This document shows, one piece after another, positions 4,050 through 27,803 of a DNA stretch of 44,049 nt. The stretch's first letter is position 1; the number at the start of each line of letters is the position of its first letter. The notes under the pieces are model-generated. The model had not been told where the DNA came from. It ran no database searches and worked only from the letters and a program-made list of their open reading frames with translations. A program made the translations under genes and the position numbers. Source of the DNA: Sedimenticola sp. GTDB lineage: Bacteria > Pseudomonadota > Gammaproteobacteria > Chromatiales > Chromatiaceae. Where the stretch lies: NCBI GenBank assembly GCA_026983675.1, contig JALSTP010000146.1, forward strand, positions 1 to 44,049, read 5' to 3'.

Positions 4050-5879
4050 ATGACCGATCTTTCCCACAAGGCGCTCGACAGGTTTCTTGAGATATCTCCG
4101 AAGAGGGAAAAGGACGGTGTTTTACGTGAATTCATGGATGCGGATCTTGGACCCGCGGAGATTTTTCGCAAGATTCTGGACCGCTATCATTTCGCCACAT
4201 CCAGCCTCGAAAAAATCCTCTCGGAAGCAGGGTATCCCGCCCCCCTGCTCACGCTCTATCACGACTTGTTTAGGGAGATGGAACGCAACCTGTCAATGGT
4301 CGACACGGATGACACCCGATTCGACTTTGTGATCGTCACCCCGGTTGCCGACCGGCCCCGCCATCTGGAGAGTTGTCTCGACAGCCTTTTACAGCTCTGC
4401 CGTCTTTTCCAGTATGGCGGTATGCAAAACGGACGATTCAAGAAGATCTCCGTCGTGATTGCCGATGACAGCATGCAAACGGAAAACATCCGACACAACA
4501 GGGAACTGGTTGAGCGATACCAGGGAAAAGGACTGGATACGGAATATTTCGGGCAACGGGAACAACGCGAAATACTCGATGCCCTGCCCAAGCCGCTTCG
4601 TTCTCGTTTGAATACCATAGTTGGAAACCATCCCCCCCATCGTTTCCACCACAAGGGGGCCTCCATCACCCGCAATATCACCTACCTTAAGCTGAACGGC
4701 ATGCGCCGCGTGCATGACCGGACGCTCTTCTGGTTTCTGGACAGCGATCAGGAATTCCGGGTCTCCACGCTCGACAGCAAGACCCCTGTCTATGCGATCA
4801 ACTATTTTCACCGCCTCAACCAGACCTTTTCGAATCCGGCCATTCAGGTCTTGACCGGCAAGGTGGTGGGCGATCCGCCGGTCTCTCCGTCCGTCATGGC
4901 CAATACGCTTCTGGAGGATGTATTGGCCCTGCTATCCCACCTGGAAAAGCTGGAGCCGCAGCAACCCTGCCCTTTTCATCAGAGCGCGCCGAAAGAACGT
5001 GGCGAGTCGTACCATGATATGGCGGAACTCTTTGGGCTGAATACAGCCAACGCCCCTTTCGAATACCCCTGTCCCGTCGAAGGGCGACACAGCGCCCTCG
5101 ATTGCCTCGACGATTTTGCATCGCGCCTCAACGCCTTCTTCGATGGCCAGCATCCCACGCGGCAGACGTATTATGAATACAGGGACTTCACCGAAACCCT
5201 GACACCCGCCCGGACGGTGTATACGGGTAACTACGTCCTCACGCCCGGCGCCTTGCAACACTTTGTCCCCTTTGCCACATTGAAACTCCGCATGGCGGGC
5301 CCGACGCTCGGCAGACTCCTCCAGTCCCAACTGCGTTCCGGTTTCGTCTCCGCCAATCTGCCCATGCTGCACCGGCGGACCGTCGATGACACGGGACGCT
5401 CCGAATTTCGCCCAGGCGTCGAGCATCAAGGGGCGATAGCCGATCTGGCGGGCGAATTCGAACGGCAGTTTTTTGGGGATGTCATGCTCTTCAGCATGGA
5501 GCGTCTGGTCGGAAACGGGTATCCCCAAACGGCGCTTGCCGACGCTGCTGTCAGGGCCATCGTCGCTCAGACAGAACAGGATCTGTCGGCAACCTACAGG
5601 CAGAAGCGAACCCAGATCCAACACAAACTCAAACGGCTGCATCTCTTCTTGAGCGATGCCACGAATGGCTGGCGCGATGCATTACCCGGGACCACAGCAG
5701 CGAACCTCAACGGTTTCATGCAAAACATGGAGTTCAATTTTGGACAGAATGCCAAAGGCTACCGCCTGATCCGGGAGGATGCACACAGACGGCAACGGCT
5801 TGAGCAGATCGTGGCCGCCATACGGCAATTGCCCGATGAAATACCGGCATGGCAAGATGCGCTCTCCCGCTGTGGCTGA
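4050..5879 (+). CDS. Large protein with GT-A glycosyltransferase-like domain
   Basis: I do not recognise the full 609-residue protein. After about 90 helical N-terminal residues comes FDFVIVTPVADRPRHLESCLDSL, a pattern typical of the first strand of a GT-A nucleotide-sugar domain. It is followed by KKISVVIADDS, then ITRNITYLKLNG and FWFLDSDQEF at about residues 208-236. The DSD would be the metal/nucleotide-binding acidic motif. The C-terminal half (about 350-609) is mainly helical, with no clear domain. No signal peptide or membrane segment is evident, so a cytoplasmic location is likely. It lies 21 nt after the ThDP enzyme gene and 22 nt before the sulfotransferase-like gene, implying co-transcription and a role in glycan or glycoconjugate assembly. 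The donor and acceptor are unknown. Confidence 0.6.
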   Translation: MTDLSHKALDRFLEISPKREKDGVLREFMDADLGPAEIFRKILDRYHFATSSLEKILSEAGYPAPLLTLYHDLFREMERNLSMVDTDDTRFDFVIVTPVADRPRHLESCLDSLLQLCRLFQYGGMQNGRFKKISVVIADDSMQTENIRHNRELVERYQGKGLDTEYFGQREQREILDALPKPLRSRLNTIVGNHPPHRFHHKGASITRNITYLKLNGMRRVHDRTLFWFLDSDQEFRVSTLDSKTPVYAINYFHRLNQTFSNPAIQVLTGKVVGDPPVSPSVMANTLLEDVLALLSHLEKLEPQQPCPFHQSAPKERGESYHDMAELFGLNTANAPFEYPCPVEGRHSALDCLDDFASRLNAFFDGQHPTRQTYYEYRDFTETLTPARTVYTGNYVLTPGALQHFVPFATLKLRMAGPTLGRLLQSQLRSGFVSANLPMLHRRTVDDTGRSEFRPGVEHQGAIADLAGEFERQFFGDVMLFSMERLVGNGYPQTALADAAVRAIVAQTEQDLSATYRQKRTQIQHKLKRLHLFLSDATNGWRDALPGTTAANLNGFMQNMEFNFGQNAKGYRLIREDAHRRQRLEQIVAAIRQLPDEIPAWQDALSRCG

Positions 5880-5901
5880 TTCAGTGATTGCTTAGAAAGA
5901 A

Positions 5902-6435
5902 ATGAATGTCTTTGTCCTCAACGCAGGCCGCTGTGGTTCAACGACCTTTATCGAGGCATGCAAACACATTACGAACTATTCCGCCTCGCATGAATCACGT
6001 TCGAGATATTGTGGCGCGCGGCGTCTGGCCTATCCCGCCAACCACATCGAGGCTGACAACCGCCTCTCCTGGATGCTTGGGCGACTCGACCGCAGATTTG
6101 GCGACCAGGCATTCTATGTTCACCTGCGGCGCGACCGGGACGCCACCGTACAGAGCTTTGTCCGGAGGGCGGATTTCGGCATCATGCGCGCCTACCGGGG
6201 CGGTATTTTACTGGGCGGTTCCGGGCAATCCGCCGAGGACATCGCCCGCGACTACCTGGACACCGTCGAGTCGAATATCGCATTGTTCCTGAGGGGCAAG
6301 AGCGGGAAAATGGATTTCTTTCTGGAACAGGCCCCCAGGGACTTCCCCTTGTTCTGGGAGAGAATCCATGCAGAGGGAAATCTCGATTTGGCGTTGGCGG
6401 AGTGGAGTATTCGCCACAACGCCTCGCCCCCCTGA
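5902..6435 (+). CDS. Sulfotransferase-like P-loop protein
   Basis: The protein is 177 residues. Its N-terminus, VFVLNAGRCGSTTFIEAC, is the 5'-phosphosulfate-binding loop of sulfotransferases that use PAPS. YVHLRRDRDATVQSF at about residues 72-86 fits the 3'-phosphate-binding Arg/Ser region. It is smaller than most carbohydrate sulfotransferases (about 250-300 residues), and ends LAEWSIRHNAS, which looks like a natural end and not a truncation. It is the last gene of the operon beginning at 2355, and an R3 repeat starts 11 nt after its stop. The likely role is transfer of a sulfuryl group to a sugar or other small acceptor made by its neighbours; the acceptor is not known. Confidence 0.68.
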   Translation: MNVFVLNAGRCGSTTFIEACKHITNYSASHESRSRYCGARRLAYPANHIEADNRLSWMLGRLDRRFGDQAFYVHLRRDRDATVQSFVRRADFGIMRAYRGGILLGGSGQSAEDIARDYLDTVESNIALFLRGKSGKMDFFLEQAPRDFPLFWERIHAEGNLDLALAEWSIRHNASPP

Positions 6436-8815: not shown

Positions 8816-8965
8816 ACACGATCACACTTCGCCTCATCCCCCACCCTATCTACGCCCGCTTCGTTTGACAGAGCCGCTCCCACTTAAAGATGGTTCCCTG
8901 AAGGTCGCTAAACTGACAGGAATTTCGATTCTGTCTGCCCAAACCAGCGATAAAAGGAGTTTTTG

Positions 8966-10426
8966 TTGAGCGCAACGCCACAAACCGTATCCGGAATAGA
9001 CCGCCGCAGAGACCCTCGCACGGACCTGCACCTCAATGTCATCCTGTTACAGGAGGGCCAGAGACCGCGTGGCTGCCGTGTCCTCAATGTGAGCAAAAGC
9101 GGAATGTTCCTCGAATGGTCAGATACACGTGACACGGGAAAGACGGCTGCCCAGCACTTCAAGCGGGGAGACGCCATCAAGATCCTCTTTTCGTTCCGTA
9201 CGGCGTCGGGAAGGAAGCACCTTGAACTCCCCTCCCAGGTCATGCGCACCGAAGGAAAGGGGATTGGCATCGCGTTTGATGAGCCGCAACAGGTCATCGA
9301 CGAGCTTGTTGGGAGCTTTGAAACGCAGGGTAAAACAAAGCCACGTATCGGGGCAGAGCAAACGTCACAGAATCCTGAACACGGCATCTTCAGCGACGAT
9401 GTCGACGCGCCCGATAACACGTCTCAAGACCCCATGAACAGCCGAAATGCGTTAACGGAGAACGACGACCCGATGGCTGCGTTCGACAGCCTGCCCGATA
9501 TCGATGACCCCCAAACCCCGGGCAACGTAACCTTCGATTATGGGGACGGGGGGGCGGAAAGCGGCATCGGCGAGGATCAGTTCGTAGAGGTCATATCTGA
9601 GCTTCATGCCGAACATCGCACGCTGGCGCGACGTCTATCCAAGGTCGGCCGCTTCATTGGCCTCCTGACCGCCGTCGTCGTTGCCGCCAATGGCTATTAC
9701 TTCTATGAAACCCACCGGCAGATATCCAGCCTGCAGGGACGCCTCGCGAAAACCGAAGAGAGTCTCGCCGCGCGTATCTCCACACCTGTCTCCGTCAACG
9801 TTCGCAAGGTCGATACAGGCAAGATCGCAGGCCAACTGGCGGCGCTGAACACGGCGGTTTCGCAGTTACGGGAGAAACTCGATCCGCTGGTGCGTCAGAC
9901 AGCAGCGCCGGCTGCCATTGTTTCTGCCCAACCACCCACCCCGACGCCTCACCAGGAACAAGGCCCTTTGTCAGCCGAAAAGCCTCTGGAGGATCCTCCG
10001 TCCAAGCCTGCTACCGCCAGGTCACCGATACACACCGTCGATCCCTCCACCCCGCCTGAGGGAAGCGGGAAGCCGGACACCGGGCAAGAAAAGGCACCGG
10101 CGGAGACGGCTTCGACGGCACAGGTTGCAGCTCGGTCTCCTACCCCCACGGTGGAGCGCCCCCCTTCCCGGCCGGCGCCGAAACAGTCAACAGGTCCGTG
10201 GGTCATCAATCTTCTGGCTCTGAAGCGCGAGAAGGCCGCCGAGCGGTTTGTTGCAAAGGCCAGACAACAGGGCATTTCCGTTGCGATGGACAAGGCGGAA
10301 GGCAAGAAGGGGACGTTCTGGCGACTGCGTATCGTGGGCTTCGGTTCAGCACGCGACGCAAAGAAGTATGCCGAAGAGATCACCCCGCGCCTCGGTCTGA
10401 AAAGCACGTGGATCAGCAAGCAGTAA
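8966..10426 (+). CDS. PilZ domain - transmembrane helix - SPOR domain protein
   Basis: A 486-residue protein starting at TTG 8966, 6 nt after AAGGAG. Residues about 12-112 form a PilZ domain: DRRRDPR supplies the RxxxR motif and LNVSKSG the (D/N)xSxxG motif that together bind cyclic di-GMP. An acidic linker follows, then one membrane helix at about 229-247 (FIGLLTAVVVAANGYYFY), a coiled-coil-like stretch, a long Pro/Thr/Ala-rich region (about 315-405) and a C-terminal SPOR domain (about 410-486). SPOR domains bind denuded septal peptidoglycan in the periplasm. The predicted topology puts PilZ in the cytoplasm and SPOR in the periplasm. This would couple cyclic di-GMP to the cell wall or division site, which is an inference. 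No operon partner is evident. Confidence 0.85.
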   Translation: MSATPQTVSGIDRRRDPRTDLHLNVILLQEGQRPRGCRVLNVSKSGMFLEWSDTRDTGKTAAQHFKRGDAIKILFSFRTASGRKHLELPSQVMRTEGKGIGIAFDEPQQVIDELVGSFETQGKTKPRIGAEQTSQNPEHGIFSDDVDAPDNTSQDPMNSRNALTENDDPMAAFDSLPDIDDPQTPGNVTFDYGDGGAESGIGEDQFVEVISELHAEHRTLARRLSKVGRFIGLLTAVVVAANGYYFYETHRQISSLQGRLAKTEESLAARISTPVSVNVRKVDTGKIAGQLAALNTAVSQLREKLDPLVRQTAAPAAIVSAQPPTPTPHQEQGPLSAEKPLEDPPSKPATARSPIHTVDPSTPPEGSGKPDTGQEKAPAETASTAQVAARSPTPTVERPPSRPAPKQSTGPWVINLLALKREKAAERFVAKARQQGISVAMDKAEGKKGTFWRLRIVGFGSARDAKKYAEEITPRLGLKSTWISKQ

Positions 10427-16464: not shown

Positions 16465-18329
16465 CGATGGAAATTGAGCAGATCGAGATACGTGATTTCC
16501 TGGGCCATACCCCGCCCCTGGACAGATTGGACCACGAGACGCTTGACGCCCTCACGCAGACGATCGAAATCACCTATGTGCGGCGGGGCCGCGATATCCT
16601 CAAGGTCGGCGAGAACAACGAATGGCTCTATCTGATCCGTACCGGCGCGGTGGAGGTCTACACCCGAGATGGCAAACTGGCCGGCCATTTCGGCGAGGGC
16701 GACTGGGTGGGCTACCGGTCCGTATTGCGCGGCGGCGAAATCAACATGCGGGTGACGGCCACGGAAGACACCCTGCTCTATATGATTCCCGGCGCAACGT
16801 TCCGCCACCTGATGGAACAGAACAACCACATCGCCAACTTCTTCAGCGAACGAAAACCCATAAGAATACGCCATGCCATCCAGGACATGCGTGGCTCGAC
16901 CAGCGCCGCGCTGATCGCCACCCAGGTCCGCGATCTGGTACACCGTACACCACTGATCCTGGATCATCATGCCACCATCCAGCAAGCCGCCCAGGCGATG
17001 AAGAACAAAACCGCCACCGCCCTCCTGGTTACCGAGAACGAACGCCTCGCCGGCATCGTTACCGACCGCGCTTTCTGCACCAAGGTCGCCGCCATGCGCC
17101 TGGATCTGGACCTTCCCGTCGAACGCATCATGACACCCAACCCCGTCACGATTCCGCCCAATACACCGGCCTCCGAGGCCCTGCTCAAGATGGCCCGGCG
17201 CAACATCCGCCACCTGCCCATCGTGGATGGCGACCGGATCATCGGCATGGTGACTGCCACCGATCTGATCCGCTATCAGAGCCACAATGCCATCTACCTG
17301 ATCAACGAAATCTACCGGGCGGAATCCATCGATGCCTTGAAGGCCCTCAGTCGGCAGCTCCCGCAAACCCTGGTCAGCCTGGTGCGCAGCAGCCTGACCG
17401 CCTATGACATCGGCCACGCCATCAGTTCAGTGGGCGAAGCGATCACCCGCCGACTGCTGCGCATGGCGGAGGCACGCCTTGGCCCGCCGCCCGTCCCCTA
17501 CGCGTGGCTCGTTGCCGGCTCCCTCGCCCGTAACGAACAGACCGCGCATTCGGATCAGGACAACGCACTCATCCTCGCCGACGCGTTCGACGCGGACACC
17601 CACGACGCCTACTTCGAGCAGCTCAGCCGGTTCGTCTGCGACGGCCTGCACGACTGCGGTTATATCTACTGTCCGGGGGACGTCATGGCCTCCAATCCAA
17701 AATGGCGGCAACCGCTCAGGATCTGGCGCGGCTATTTCAACGACTGGATCGACAGTCCTCAACCGAAGGCGCTGATGTACGCCAGCATTTTCTTCGATCT
17801 GCGCACCCTCCACGGTGAACATGATCTATTGAAGAGCCTGTATCAAACGGTGCTCGAGAAGACCCGGACCAACACCATCTTCCAGACCTACATGGCCGCC
17901 AATGCGCTGCACTACCAGCCCCCACTGGGGCTGTTCAGAACCTTCGTGCTGGAGAAAACCGGCGCCGAAGAGAAGGCGCTGAACATGAAGAAACGGGGTG
18001 TGGTGCCGGTCATCGACATGGCGCGGGTCTATGCCCTTGCCTCCGGAATCGGGACGCTCAACACCCAGGACCGCCTCCAGGCGGCTGCCGAGGCCGGCGC
18101 ATTGAGCCAGAGCGGCATGGAGGACCTGCGTGATGCCTTCGAATTCATCAGCACTGTCCGCCTGCAACATCAGGCAACAAAGATCGAGCGTGGCGAGTCA
18201 CCGGACAATTTCGTCTCCCCGGAACAGCTCTCCTCGCTGGAACGGCGCCATCTCAAGGATGCCTTTGAGGTGGTGCGCACCCTGCAGGACGCCATGGAGG
18301 TGCGCTATCAGGCAGGCCGTATCGCGTGA
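16461..18329 (+). CDS. cNMP-binding, CBS-pair, DUF294 nucleotidyltransferase protein
   Basis: The 622-residue protein has three parts. A cyclic-nucleotide-binding domain lies at about 15-125 (GENNEWLYLIRTGAVEVY with HFGEGDWVGYRS). A CBS pair lies at about 150-275 (TALLVTENERLAGIVTDR; VERIMTPNPVTI; RHLPIVDGDRIIGMVTATDL). A DUF294 nucleotidyltransferase domain starts at about 330, with the GSLARNEQTAHSDQDNALI motif at about 353 and a helical DUF294_C end. The acidic DQDNA residues would bind metal. It likely senses a nucleotide and controls uptake or metabolism of the nearby symporter substrate; comparable genes flank actP-type symporters in many proteobacteria. No membrane segment is seen. Confidence 0.88.
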   Translation: MTMEIEQIEIRDFLGHTPPLDRLDHETLDALTQTIEITYVRRGRDILKVGENNEWLYLIRTGAVEVYTRDGKLAGHFGEGDWVGYRSVLRGGEINMRVTATEDTLLYMIPGATFRHLMEQNNHIANFFSERKPIRIRHAIQDMRGSTSAALIATQVRDLVHRTPLILDHHATIQQAAQAMKNKTATALLVTENERLAGIVTDRAFCTKVAAMRLDLDLPVERIMTPNPVTIPPNTPASEALLKMARRNIRHLPIVDGDRIIGMVTATDLIRYQSHNAIYLINEIYRAESIDALKALSRQLPQTLVSLVRSSLTAYDIGHAISSVGEAITRRLLRMAEARLGPPPVPYAWLVAGSLARNEQTAHSDQDNALILADAFDADTHDAYFEQLSRFVCDGLHDCGYIYCPGDVMASNPKWRQPLRIWRGYFNDWIDSPQPKALMYASIFFDLRTLHGEHDLLKSLYQTVLEKTRTNTIFQTYMAANALHYQPPLGLFRTFVLEKTGAEEKALNMKKRGVVPVIDMARVYALASGIGTLNTQDRLQAAAEAGALSQSGMEDLRDAFEFISTVRLQHQATKIERGESPDNFVSPEQLSSLERRHLKDAFEVVRTLQDAMEVRYQAGRIA

Positions 18330-18361
18330 CTCCTTGTTGCCAGGAGGCCGCCCCAGGCGCG

Positions 18362-18527
18362 TAACCCGGATTATTCATGAAGTCGCTCGTGCCCTTGCTT
18401 GATCCTTGTCCACACAGGAAATTTTCCTTCCTCGGCAATACAGCCCGTATTCCACTCGGTCGGAAAATCCCCTGTGCGGACAATTCTCTGTGCAATCATC
18501 GCGGCGATTCATGAATAATCCGGGCTA
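18362..18527 (+). repeat. R2 repeat, full palindromic copy
   Basis: The element starts TAACCCGGATTATTCATGAA, and its end reads as the inverted TTAGCCCGGATTATTCATGAA. Inner arms also pair (CACACAGGAAATTTTCC with GGAAAATCCCCTGTGCGG), so the whole could fold in a long hairpin. The element ends 2 nt before the exonuclease ATG. A half copy is at 27999-28075. Confidence 0.78.
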
Positions 18528-18529
18528 AG

Positions 18530-19216
18530 ATGTTCTCCAGACTGCTGCCACCGAATCTCTATCGAAGCTATCTGTCGACACGCCTTCGGCAGGGGCCTCT
18601 TGCCCGCTATCTGCAACACCCGTTTCCAAGTCGCGGTCAAACCGTAGAGGCGACCGAGTTTCTGGCCCTCGATTTCGAGACCACGGGGCTCGATGTCCGC
18701 AAGGACGCCATCCTCAGCGCCGGCTACACCCTCATCCGCAATGGCCGGGTGGTGCTTGGGGAAAATGGCCACCACATCGTACGGGTGGAAAAAACGCTGT
18801 CCAGGGAAAGCGTCGTCATCCATAAGATCACGGACGACCGAATGCGCCACGGCATGCCGCTCGGCGCACTCATGGACATCCTGCTGGAAAAGCTGGCCGG
18901 GCGGGTATTGCTGGTCCACTACGCGCCGGTTGAGACGGGCTTTCTCAATGCCGCCAGCCGGCGACTCTACGGCCACGGCCTGCCCCTGATGATTGCCGAC
19001 ACCATGGCCATCGAGCGGCGGCGGCTCGAACGCCGTCATATCCCCATCGAACCCGGCAAGCTGCGCTTGTTCAACCTCCGTCGCGAATACGGCCTGCCGC
19101 GATACAATGCCCACAGCGCACTGGAAGACGCCATCGCGACCGCGGAACTGTTTCTCGCACAAACGGCGCATATGGGCAATAGGAAGCCTGTTCCCATCAA
19201 AATGGTTCTCGGTTGA
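18530..19216 (+). CDS. DEDDh 3'-5' exonuclease (DnaQ-like)
   Basis: The 228-residue protein carries the three exonuclease motifs: FLALDFETTGLD at about residues 44-55 (Exo I, Asp and Glu), VHYAPVETGFL at about 127 (Exo II region), and NAHSALEDAIATAEL at about 190 (Exo III with His and Asp, DEDDh type). It resembles the epsilon-like exonucleases found with cNMP-CBS regulators and symporters. The usual N-terminal extension of about 40 residues is present. The ATG lies directly after an R2 element and has no Shine-Dalgarno sequence, so its translation signals were probably altered by the insertion. The substrate, DNA or RNA, is unknown. Confidence 0.85.
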   Translation: MFSRLLPPNLYRSYLSTRLRQGPLARYLQHPFPSRGQTVEATEFLALDFETTGLDVRKDAILSAGYTLIRNGRVVLGENGHHIVRVEKTLSRESVVIHKITDDRMRHGMPLGALMDILLEKLAGRVLLVHYAPVETGFLNAASRRLYGHGLPLMIADTMAIERRRLERRHIPIEPGKLRLFNLRREYGLPRYNAHSALEDAIATAELFLAQTAHMGNRKPVPIKMVLG

Positions 19217-25005: not shown

Positions 25006-26424
25006 TCAAAAAAAGCCGTGCAGAAACCAACGTCCATCCCCCCCTGTTTCACGAAAAATCCATAACCGTTCTCCCCGCGGGGTACTGACCACAAAATAGT
25101 CCCGCTTCACCGGTTCTCCATCCCACCAACCGGCCTCGATGCACTCACGCTCACCCTCGAAGGTCAGCCAGCCCCGGCGCAGCTTCATGGGGCGCGGCTC
25201 GGCCAGCAACCAGCATGGACGCCCGGCGCGGGACACGCCGTGATCCCCCTGCCACCGGGGATCACAGTAGGCCCATCCCCGTTCGGGCCGATGGTCGGCG
25301 ATACTGCACAGCCCCTTTATCCGCGTCTCGCCCAGGCGACTGCACAGGCGCTCCAGGAGACGGGCCTCCTCCTCCCGGATACCGGCCTCATGCCGTACAA
25401 AAAGGGGCATGGGGCGTCCCACCAGCGGTTCCATCTGCCGCACTCTCAGAATGATTTCCCGCACGGGCGCCGGCAGATCCAGACGCTCCAGGCGTTCCCG
25501 CAGCAGACCGAACAACTGACCGGGGTCACGCGCCGGCGACACCAGGCGCAGATCGAACCGGGTAGCGGGCACATCCTGATGCCCCAACCGCCACTCCAGC
25601 CGGCGCGCGCCTGTCTGGCGCAGCGCGAGAAAGCCGGCCAGTTCGCCCAGCAGGCGGCGGGCGGCGAACAGGATACCGTCCAGCGTCTCCACCTCGGCGG
25701 GCAATTCCAGACGGCTGGAGAACCGCGGCGGGGGGGTAAATGCGGGCCTGGGGTCCGGCACCCGGCCGAGGATCTGCTCCAGCCGGCGGCCCAATTCCAC
25801 ACCCAGCCGCTGCACCACCCCCCCGCGCGGCAACCGCAACAACTCATCGATGCAACGCACGCCCATGTCATCGAGGAGGGCGCGGTGCTGTTTGTCCAAC
25901 CCCAATGCCGCCACGGGCAAGGCGCCAACCTGGCGATGCAGATCATCGGCCGACACGCGCATGGGAGTCCCCTCCCAACCGGCCAGCAACAGGGCGGCCC
26001 CAGGGGTGGGCGCGAGGCACAACCGCCCCCGATAGCCGAGCGCGTCGAGCCCTTCCCGCACCGCGCCGAGCAGGGCCCCTTCTCCTTTGAACAAGCGCAG
26101 ACTCCCCCCCGCCTCCAGTACCAGGGCAAAGGGCGGCGCAAGGCTCACCCGCGAACTGAACTGCCCGGCCCAGCACGCCAGCCGCTGGAGCGCACGCCCC
26201 TCGGCAATGGAAGACCGCGGCCGGATGCGCAGGTCGGCCGCCAGCGCCCGCGCCGCCTCCACCCGTAATCCCGGGGTCACGCCCCTGCGCCGTGCCGCGC
26301 CATTGCAATGCAGGATACGCCTTCGCTCGCGCCTCCCGCTCACGGCCAAGGGAATAGCGGGATCGATACCGCGGCTATGCACCTCCAATGGAAGTTCTGG
26401 CAGATGAATGGCGAGCCACTGCAT
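25006..26424 (-). CDS. imuB: ImuB, catalytically inactive Y-family polymerase-like protein
   Basis: From ATG 26424 the protein has 472 residues and the layout of ImuB: an N-terminal Y-family palm (WLAIHLPELPLEV) where catalytic Y-family enzymes have a DxD metal site but no acidic residues occur here, thumb/little-finger-like regions with LRLPRGGVVQRLG, and an ImuB-type C-terminal region (GWAYCDPRWQGD, WWDGEPVKRDYFVV). ImuB acts as an adaptor, binding the sliding clamp and bringing the DnaE2 polymerase to damaged DNA. QLFGLL at about residue 335 could be a clamp-binding motif. It starts 11 nt after the imuA stop. The partner dnaE2 is not present downstream. An ATG 31 codons upstream would overlap imuA and lacks conservation. 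Confidence 0.9.
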   Translation of the reverse strand: MQWLAIHLPELPLEVHSRGIDPAIPLAVSGRRERRRILHCNGAARRRGVTPGLRVEAARALAADLRIRPRSSIAEGRALQRLACWAGQFSSRVSLAPPFALVLEAGGSLRLFKGEGALLGAVREGLDALGYRGRLCLAPTPGAALLLAGWEGTPMRVSADDLHRQVGALPVAALGLDKQHRALLDDMGVRCIDELLRLPRGGVVQRLGVELGRRLEQILGRVPDPRPAFTPPPRFSSRLELPAEVETLDGILFAARRLLGELAGFLALRQTGARRLEWRLGHQDVPATRFDLRLVSPARDPGQLFGLLRERLERLDLPAPVREIILRVRQMEPLVGRPMPLFVRHEAGIREEEARLLERLCSRLGETRIKGLCSIADHRPERGWAYCDPRWQGDHGVSRAGRPCWLLAEPRPMKLRRGWLTFEGERECIEAGWWDGEPVKRDYFVVSTPRGERLWIFRETGGDGRWFLHGFF

Positions 26425-26435
26425 ACCAACCCCGC

Positions 26436-27068
26436 TCAGCCGGCAATGCGATGCGGTCCGCTGGGCCAGCCACCCTGGCGTTTGACCACTTCCACCGTCA
26501 TTGCCCCTGCATCCCACCGCGCCTCCAGACGCAACGCCACCGGCGCCGCCGTCGCCCGCCAGCGCCGCGCACGAAACATAAAGGCCAGCGCCCGCCCCTT
26601 CCGCGCCGCCAACTGGAAACGGCGCAATACCGCGGTCTCAAGACGTCCCGGCCAGGCGAGCACCGCCCCGCAGACGCCGGAACGCAGCCCCTGTTCCACG
26701 CTCCACAGCAGATCCCCCTCGTCGGCGGCAGGAATCACCCATTGGCGCGAAAGGTCCAGACCTTGTCCGGCCAGGGCCGGCGCATAAGGCACATGAGGCG
26801 GGGCCACCCACAGAATGCGGCGCCCCGCCCGGCTCAAGGCAGCCACTGCCGGCAGCACCAGATTGATACTGTTCACGCCGTCACTCAGAAGATCGACCAC
26901 ACCACTCCGGGGCCAGCCTCCCCCCAGTAGCTCATCGAGCCCGGCGACACCGCTGGCGAGCAAGGAATACCCGTCGACGGCGGACTCACGCGCCCGCCAC
27001 ACGCCGGGGTGCGCGCGCAGCAGACGACCCAGGCGGTCTTCTTTCGATATAGAGAGGTCGGGTGTCAT
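26436..27068 (-). CDS. imuA: ImuA, SOS mutagenesis accessory protein
   Basis: The 210-residue protein resembles proteobacterial ImuA (RecA/SulA-like fold). GVAGLDELLGGGWPRSGVVDLLS at about residues 39-61 corresponds to the RecA-like N-terminal segment, but the Walker A loop is degenerate. GRRILWVAPPHVPYAPALAGQGLDL at about 81-105 is highly typical. ImuA works with ImuB and DnaE2 in error-prone translesion synthesis. It lies between lexA (84 nt) and imuB (11 nt) on one strand, so expression is probably from the lexA promoter and SOS-induced. Confidence 0.88.
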   Translation of the reverse strand: MTPDLSISKEDRLGRLLRAHPGVWRARESAVDGYSLLASGVAGLDELLGGGWPRSGVVDLLSDGVNSINLVLPAVAALSRAGRRILWVAPPHVPYAPALAGQGLDLSRQWVIPAADEGDLLWSVEQGLRSGVCGAVLAWPGRLETAVLRRFQLAARKGRALAFMFRARRWRATAAPVALRLEARWDAGAMTVEVVKRQGGWPSGPHRIAG

Positions 27069-27152
27069 CTCAAGACCAAGGTCCGCAACCGAAATGCTGG
27101 AGCAGAAGAATAGAACACCTCCAGGCTCAGCAGACGCGCCCCCTGCCGGCCG

Positions 27153-27803
27153 TCATTTGCGCCGCAGAGGAGTCGCCTCCAGCCCGCGGCGCAACAGACC
27201 CACGCCCAGCCCCTCGATCACCAGCGACTGCTCCCGCAGATCCACCTCAATCGGTGCGTAGTCGGGGTTGGCCGGTTCCAGGCGCACCCGGTGACGCCAG
27301 CGTGCATGACGCCAAAAGCGTTTGACGGTGACCTCGTCATCCAGCCGCGCCACCACGATCTGGCCGTTCGATGCTTCGCGCACGCTGTGCACCGCCAGCA
27401 GATCACCGTCCAGAATGCCGATATCGCGCATGCTCATCCCCTGCACCCGCAACAGATAGTCCGCGCGGGGATGGAAGGCGTCAGGGTCGATCGCGTAGCG
27501 TTCCTCCACATGCGCCTCCGCCAGAATCGGCGACCCGGCGGCGACCCGGCCGATGACGGGCACGCCTTCCGTCTCCGGCCCCCCTGGCTCCTCCGGCTCG
27601 ATCAGCCGAATGCCACGGGAGGTGTTCTTCAATAGCTCAATGGCCCCCTTCCGCGCCAGCGCACGCAAGTGCTCCTCCGCCGCATTGGAAGAACGAAAAC
27701 CCAGCGCCCGCGCAATCTCCACCCGTGTGGGCGGAAGACCGGTGGTCCTCAGTTCCCTGCGAATCAGCTTCAGGACCTCTTTCTGGCGTGGTGTCAGTTT
27801 CAT
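27153..27803 (-). CDS. lexA: LexA repressor
   Basis: The 216-residue protein has an N-terminal winged helix in which the recognition-helix segment, [22 protein letters not shown], is close to that of E. coli LexA. The self-cleavage site AAGS (Ala-Gly) is at about residue 89, the nucleophile Ser in GMSMRD at about 124, and the general-base Lys in VTVKRF at about 161. It represses SOS genes until RecA filaments stimulate its cleavage. The E. coli-like helix predicts binding to CTGT-N8-ACAG, and one such box is found 305 nt upstream. GGGGGAG precedes the ATG. It heads the operon lexA-imuA-imuB. Confidence 0.95.

Follow-up and report, generated by a model that had tools for sequence, protein, structure and literature searches.

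Alg44 from Pseudomonas aeruginosa carries an N-terminal PilZ domain with RxxxR and DxSxxG motifs, joined through the inner membrane with a membrane-fusion domain in the periplasm, and belongs to an alginate complex encoded in a gene cluster. Mutation of its R17, R21, D44 and S46 residues leads to loss of cyclic di-GMP (c-di-GMP) binding (PMC12564702). DamX, DedD and FtsN from E. coli are bitopic proteins with a cytoplasmic N-terminus, a periplasmic linker and a C-terminal SPOR domain, with an additional large cytoplasmic domain in DamX (PMC7642682); none of them contains a PilZ domain. In RlpA, a lipoprotein lytic transglycosylase from P. aeruginosa, the glycan is touched by Q270 of the SPOR domain, the most conserved position, and by a basic patch to which R309 belongs; according to a survey statement in the same work, every SPOR protein known so far has a role in division or morphogenesis (PMC6895207). 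LapD is a membrane c-di-GMP receptor with periplasmic output, built from degenerate GGDEF-EAL domains and partnered with a periplasmic protease, in which c-di-GMP drives a rearrangement across the membrane through EAL dimerisation and transmembrane helix reorientation (PMC5231407). YfiN (DgcN) from E. coli and Salmonella is a diguanylate cyclase recruited via FtsZ/ZipA, and at the division site it blocks septal wall synthesis, as known for E. coli (PMC4992967). Known links between c-di-GMP and division in the literature found act via other proteins, such as this cyclase. No published PilZ-SPOR protein was found in the accessible literature, which lacks most subscription journals and mentions PilZ and SPOR separately only, in agreement with the initial annotation, which knew of no described receptor of this kind; no protein with a SPOR domain appears in two reviews covering c-di-GMP signalling and its effectors.

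Both domains are combined in one protein encoded in the window, i.e. the whole stretch of 44,049 nucleotides from Sedimenticola sp. analysed here (Table 1). The mechanical ORF call begins at 8963, one codon upstream of the TTG codon at 8966, and ends at 10426 on the + strand. The latter codon is the likelier start because the AGGAG sequence ends 6 nt ahead of it, compared with a spacing of only 3 nt to the start at 8963; the gene thus lies where it had initially been placed. The PilZ and SPOR domains both scored above their curated Pfam cut-offs, no further Pfam domain was matched in the protein, and RRDPR and NVSKSG fit the RxxxR and [D/N]xSxxG consensus, respectively, as had been read from the translation.

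Table 1 Features of the PilZ-SPOR gene and its product (residue numbers of the RRDPR and NVSKSG motifs are counted from 8963).
Feature	Position	Strand	Basis
Shine-Dalgarno-like AGGAG	8955..8959	+	read from sequence; 6 nt before the TTG start
PilZ-TM-SPOR gene	8966..10426	+	TTG start; product of 486 aa
PilZ domain	8999..9292	+	PF07238, 34.4 bits (curated cut-off 22.5); beta-rich model matches Alg44 and BcsA PilZ structures
RxxxR motif (RRDPR)	9005..9019	+	translation; residues 15-19
[D/N]xSxxG motif (NVSKSG)	9086..9103	+	translation; residues 42-47
Acidic cytoplasmic linker, predicted disordered	9293..9634	+	pLDDT < 50 over residues 117-221; about 110 aa
Single predicted transmembrane helix	9635..9691	+	hydropathy scan; N-in from basic flank RTLARRLSKVGR
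Periplasmic helical, coiled-coil-like segment	9704..9919	+	predicted helices 248-273 and 285-319
Pro-rich periplasmic linker, predicted disordered	9920..10189	+	sequence; pLDDT < 50 over residues 346-404; about 90 residues
SPOR domain	10190..10423	+	PF05036, 42.4 bits (curated cut-off 21); pLDDT about 90; RlpA SPOR fold match

The membrane helix and Pro-rich spacer previously proposed to lie between the two domains were supported: hydropathy analysis predicted one clear hydrophobic segment (residues 224-242) of a Kyte-Doolittle mean of 1.41, compared to 0.47 for the runner-up, and the translation has the Pro-rich stretch preceding the SPOR domain. This hydrophobic segment is the weakest of the family (1.74-2.49 in the relatives). 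A basic stretch flanks it on the N-terminal side, suggesting that the PilZ domain is cytoplasmic and the SPOR domain periplasmic.

As a sequence search of solved structures, with either the protein or the SPOR profile, gave no useful match, the domains were compared by fold, using two AlphaFold models generated from the single sequence and with six relatives, respectively. These models contain a beta-rich N-terminal domain of moderate confidence (pLDDT about 50-80) and a confident C-terminal SPOR domain, with pLDDT blocks of 88-94 in the second model. Foldseek comparison indicated that the N-terminal domain resembles c-di-GMP-bound PilZ structures of Alg44 (4rt0/4rt1) and BcsA, and Alg44 was the best match to the second model. 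The residues of the two motifs correspond to R17, R21, D44 and S46 of Alg44, and Ser and Gly of the NVSKSG region are kept in all relatives covering it. Taken as a member of this family, the PilZ domain probably binds c-di-GMP. Unlike alg44, however, the gene stands alone, the scan of its neighbours showing no alginate genes, and its product has a SPOR domain in place of the membrane-fusion domain.

The SPOR model aligned in VIA-align with the SPOR domain of RlpA in complex with denuded glycan (6i09, also 6i05; Z 9.1, rmsd 2.1 over 75 residues), followed by DedD (Z 6.9) and DamX (Z 6.7). Of the RlpA glycan contacts, the Arg of the R309 type is kept, while Q270 and F274 are not conserved, being replaced by Asn and Leu, respectively. 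The Asn substitution is found throughout this SPOR group, also in PilZ-less relatives and in two further SPOR proteins of the same genome; the DedD, RlpA, FtsN and DamX candidates of this genome have Gln at the key position. Binding of denuded glycan is therefore not assured, yet it is plausible given that the amide side chain is retained with Asn. Septal targeting of the protein would be expected from its membership of the SPOR family.

Profile searches identified single ORFs with both PilZ and SPOR in G293, G361 and G471, and follow-up in the order of G471 provided further members. Together with those from the window's own family (G009 and G016), about a dozen PilZ-SPOR proteins were found, spanning three genome families of Gammaproteobacteria and including metagenome-assembled genomes recorded as Chromatiales (Ww483), uncultured Ectothiorhodospiraceae and Gammaproteobacteria. 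They form a small, conserved and apparently undescribed family. Within the window's own order the architecture is rare, occurring in 3 of 210 genomes. No further PilZ-SPOR protein was among the matches listed for 398 genomes of the phylum, searched with the own-family profile and with few candidates scored per genome; this draw gave SPOR-only relatives and isolated PilZ matches, such as one in a 1292-aa ORF. Independent fusions elsewhere are possible. Several relatives are uninterrupted PilZ-SPOR ORFs well inside contigs; the G009 protein is divided between two contigs (overlap of about 200 bp, 90% identity), and we infer its full length from the two parts. G413 was considered as a member on the basis of its SPOR domain and was rejected, having no PilZ domain upstream.

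Both motifs are intact in six proteins (the Sedimenticola protein, G009, G293, G959, G960 and G966). The RxxxR motif is missing from G361, G471, G967, G972 and a degenerate contig-end copy in G016, at least five relatives in all, suggesting that canonical c-di-GMP binding is not required for the fusion to be maintained, and G957 has VRHAR at this position. In a tree of the SPOR domain, the fused forms cluster with a few PilZ-less relatives and three changes are needed; with few columns available, the tree does not decide between single and multiple origins, and a single origin of the fusion would still be compatible with it. Some of the PilZ-less SPOR relatives (L014, L015, L062, L071, L082 and L141) carry a short conserved cytoplasmic motif near the N-terminus, of the type HDEGxxGF or I(Q/R)D(E/D)GPA, possibly a docking peptide.

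We consider that there is about an even chance that the protein acts as a c-di-GMP receptor in the inner membrane, kept at the division site by its SPOR domain, with the PilZ domain setting the timing. The periplasmic SPOR domain, carried on the coiled segment and Pro-rich linker, would bind septal glycan denuded by amidases and so fix the position of the protein. On its long flexible linker, the cytoplasmic PilZ domain would bind c-di-GMP and then engage or release a cytoplasmic or divisome partner, determining when it acts, so that septal wall synthesis or daughter-cell separation would be adjusted at high c-di-GMP. This proposal is supported by the scores of both domains, their fold matches, the occurrence of the architecture in three genome families and the RxxxR motif in six proteins, as well as by a genome with 21 GGDEF matches, one Amidase_3 match and candidate FtsN, DedD, DamX and RlpA proteins. 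YfiN, although not a PilZ-SPOR receptor, is a direct precedent for septal action of a c-di-GMP protein. Against it stand the Asn at the Q270 position, the loss of RxxxR in relatives and the absence of a conserved neighbourhood pointing to a partner.

The initial annotation had envisaged a receptor that carries a c-di-GMP signal to denuded septal peptidoglycan. A bitopic PilZ-TM-SPOR protein with intact c-di-GMP motifs is supported, but the two long linkers speak against a mechanical conduction of the signal: with stretches before and after the membrane helix predicted to be disordered, rigid coupling between PilZ and SPOR is hard to picture and tethering is easier. Tethering, in which SPOR specifies the place and PilZ the time, is therefore favoured as the most economical mechanism. 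Taken strictly, the model of the initial annotation would be inside-out signalling, in which c-di-GMP on the PilZ domain alters the oligomeric state or the packing of helices across the membrane and thereby the avidity of SPOR for denuded glycan or its contacts with septal wall enzymes. The coiled-coil-like segment follows the membrane helix directly, so dimerisation could be coupled, and LapD offers a precedent for a c-di-GMP-driven rearrangement across the membrane (PMC5231407). However, the disordered stretches between PilZ and the helix and between the coil and SPOR separate the parts to be coupled, and LapD, which shares no domain with the present protein and resembles it in working only, achieves its coupling differently; we regard this explanation as unlikely.

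Similarly doubtful is the explanation that PilZ serves chiefly as a module for protein-protein interaction, in a SPOR-family protein that contributes constitutively to division or the wall and acts independently of c-di-GMP. The relatives lacking RxxxR, at least five of the dozen or so found, would agree with it, as would the close SPOR relatives that lack PilZ, and a non-binding PilZ domain acting through protein contacts is known from Xanthomonas (Table 1 of PMC10333796). Nevertheless, the Sedimenticola protein and five relatives across three families keep both motifs, which is unlikely without selection at the 23-31% identity to which the family has diverged. Members of one family (f153; L132, L126, L127, L129 and L130) include PilZ-SPOR proteins that keep RxxxR and others that have lost it, providing a natural contrast for comparing c-di-GMP-dependent and -independent forms.

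It is improbable that the SPOR domain attaches the protein to the wall at places other than the septum, such as poles or appendage sites, and that the protein is a c-di-GMP effector for motility or adhesion instead of division. The Gln-to-Asn change common to this SPOR group, with its PilZ-less relatives, and the presence of flagellin and a chemoreceptor gene in the genome would be in line with such a role, but the SPOR proteins known so far all act in division or morphogenesis (PMC6895207) and no motility gene was found among the neighbours of the PilZ-SPOR gene. The architecture as a product of a chimeric contig, a pseudogene or a chance domain call, which might be suspected in a draft genome of 232 contigs, was rejected with a probability close to nil, because several related, independent genomes share the whole architecture and both domains lie far over their cut-offs.

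If the protein is a SPOR-anchored receptor as favoured above, it may give a lifestyle signal a point of action at the division site. A PilZ receptor that brings along its own address for the septal wall would connect a lifestyle second messenger directly, and in a testable way, with septal peptidoglycan, in a protein small enough to be studied in standard laboratory strains. More tentatively, with odds clearly short of even, it could represent a new receptor class that brings c-di-GMP action directly to the constricting septum, through a PilZ domain which SPOR anchors to denuded glycan, and makes wall synthesis or cell separation c-di-GMP-responsive; daughter cells might then, for instance, be kept attached at high c-di-GMP. 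The initially suggested tie to the motile/sessile switch would draw on the GGDEF proteins and flagellin of the genome; the gene itself has no conserved neighbours.

The same genome contains 9 PilZ and 9 SPOR matches and two flagellins. None of the NCBIfam models for FtsN, DedD, DamX and RlpA matched the PilZ-SPOR protein at E 0.01, and its assignment as an orthologue of any of them was rejected, as other ORFs of the genome match each model best. The RlpA candidate is a separate ORF above its subfamily cut-off; the DamX, DedD and FtsN candidates, also separate ORFs, are the best matches yet lie under the equivalog cut-offs. The PilZ-SPOR protein is thus an addition to the usual SPOR set. Elsewhere in this genome (G000:C133, around 17260-18970; L041), an HlyD-type ORF has a weak C-terminal SPOR match, and an ORF with two GGDEF matches (G000:C133:20085-21218) lies about 1 kb downstream of it.

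The PilZ-SPOR gene is flanked by ArfB upstream and by a convergent hemerythrin-like gene downstream, and comparison of 18 window genes with 16 related loci gave no conserved operon or partner gene. On the + strand at 4050-6435, two ORFs of 609 and 177 aa without Pfam or NCBIfam match lie 3' of a gene for a TPP-dependent enzyme. On the - strand at 25006-27803, a Y-family-polymerase-like (IMS/ImuB-type) ORF, a small overlapping ORF and a LexA gene lie together, in what looks like an ImuA-ImuB-LexA mutagenesis cassette.
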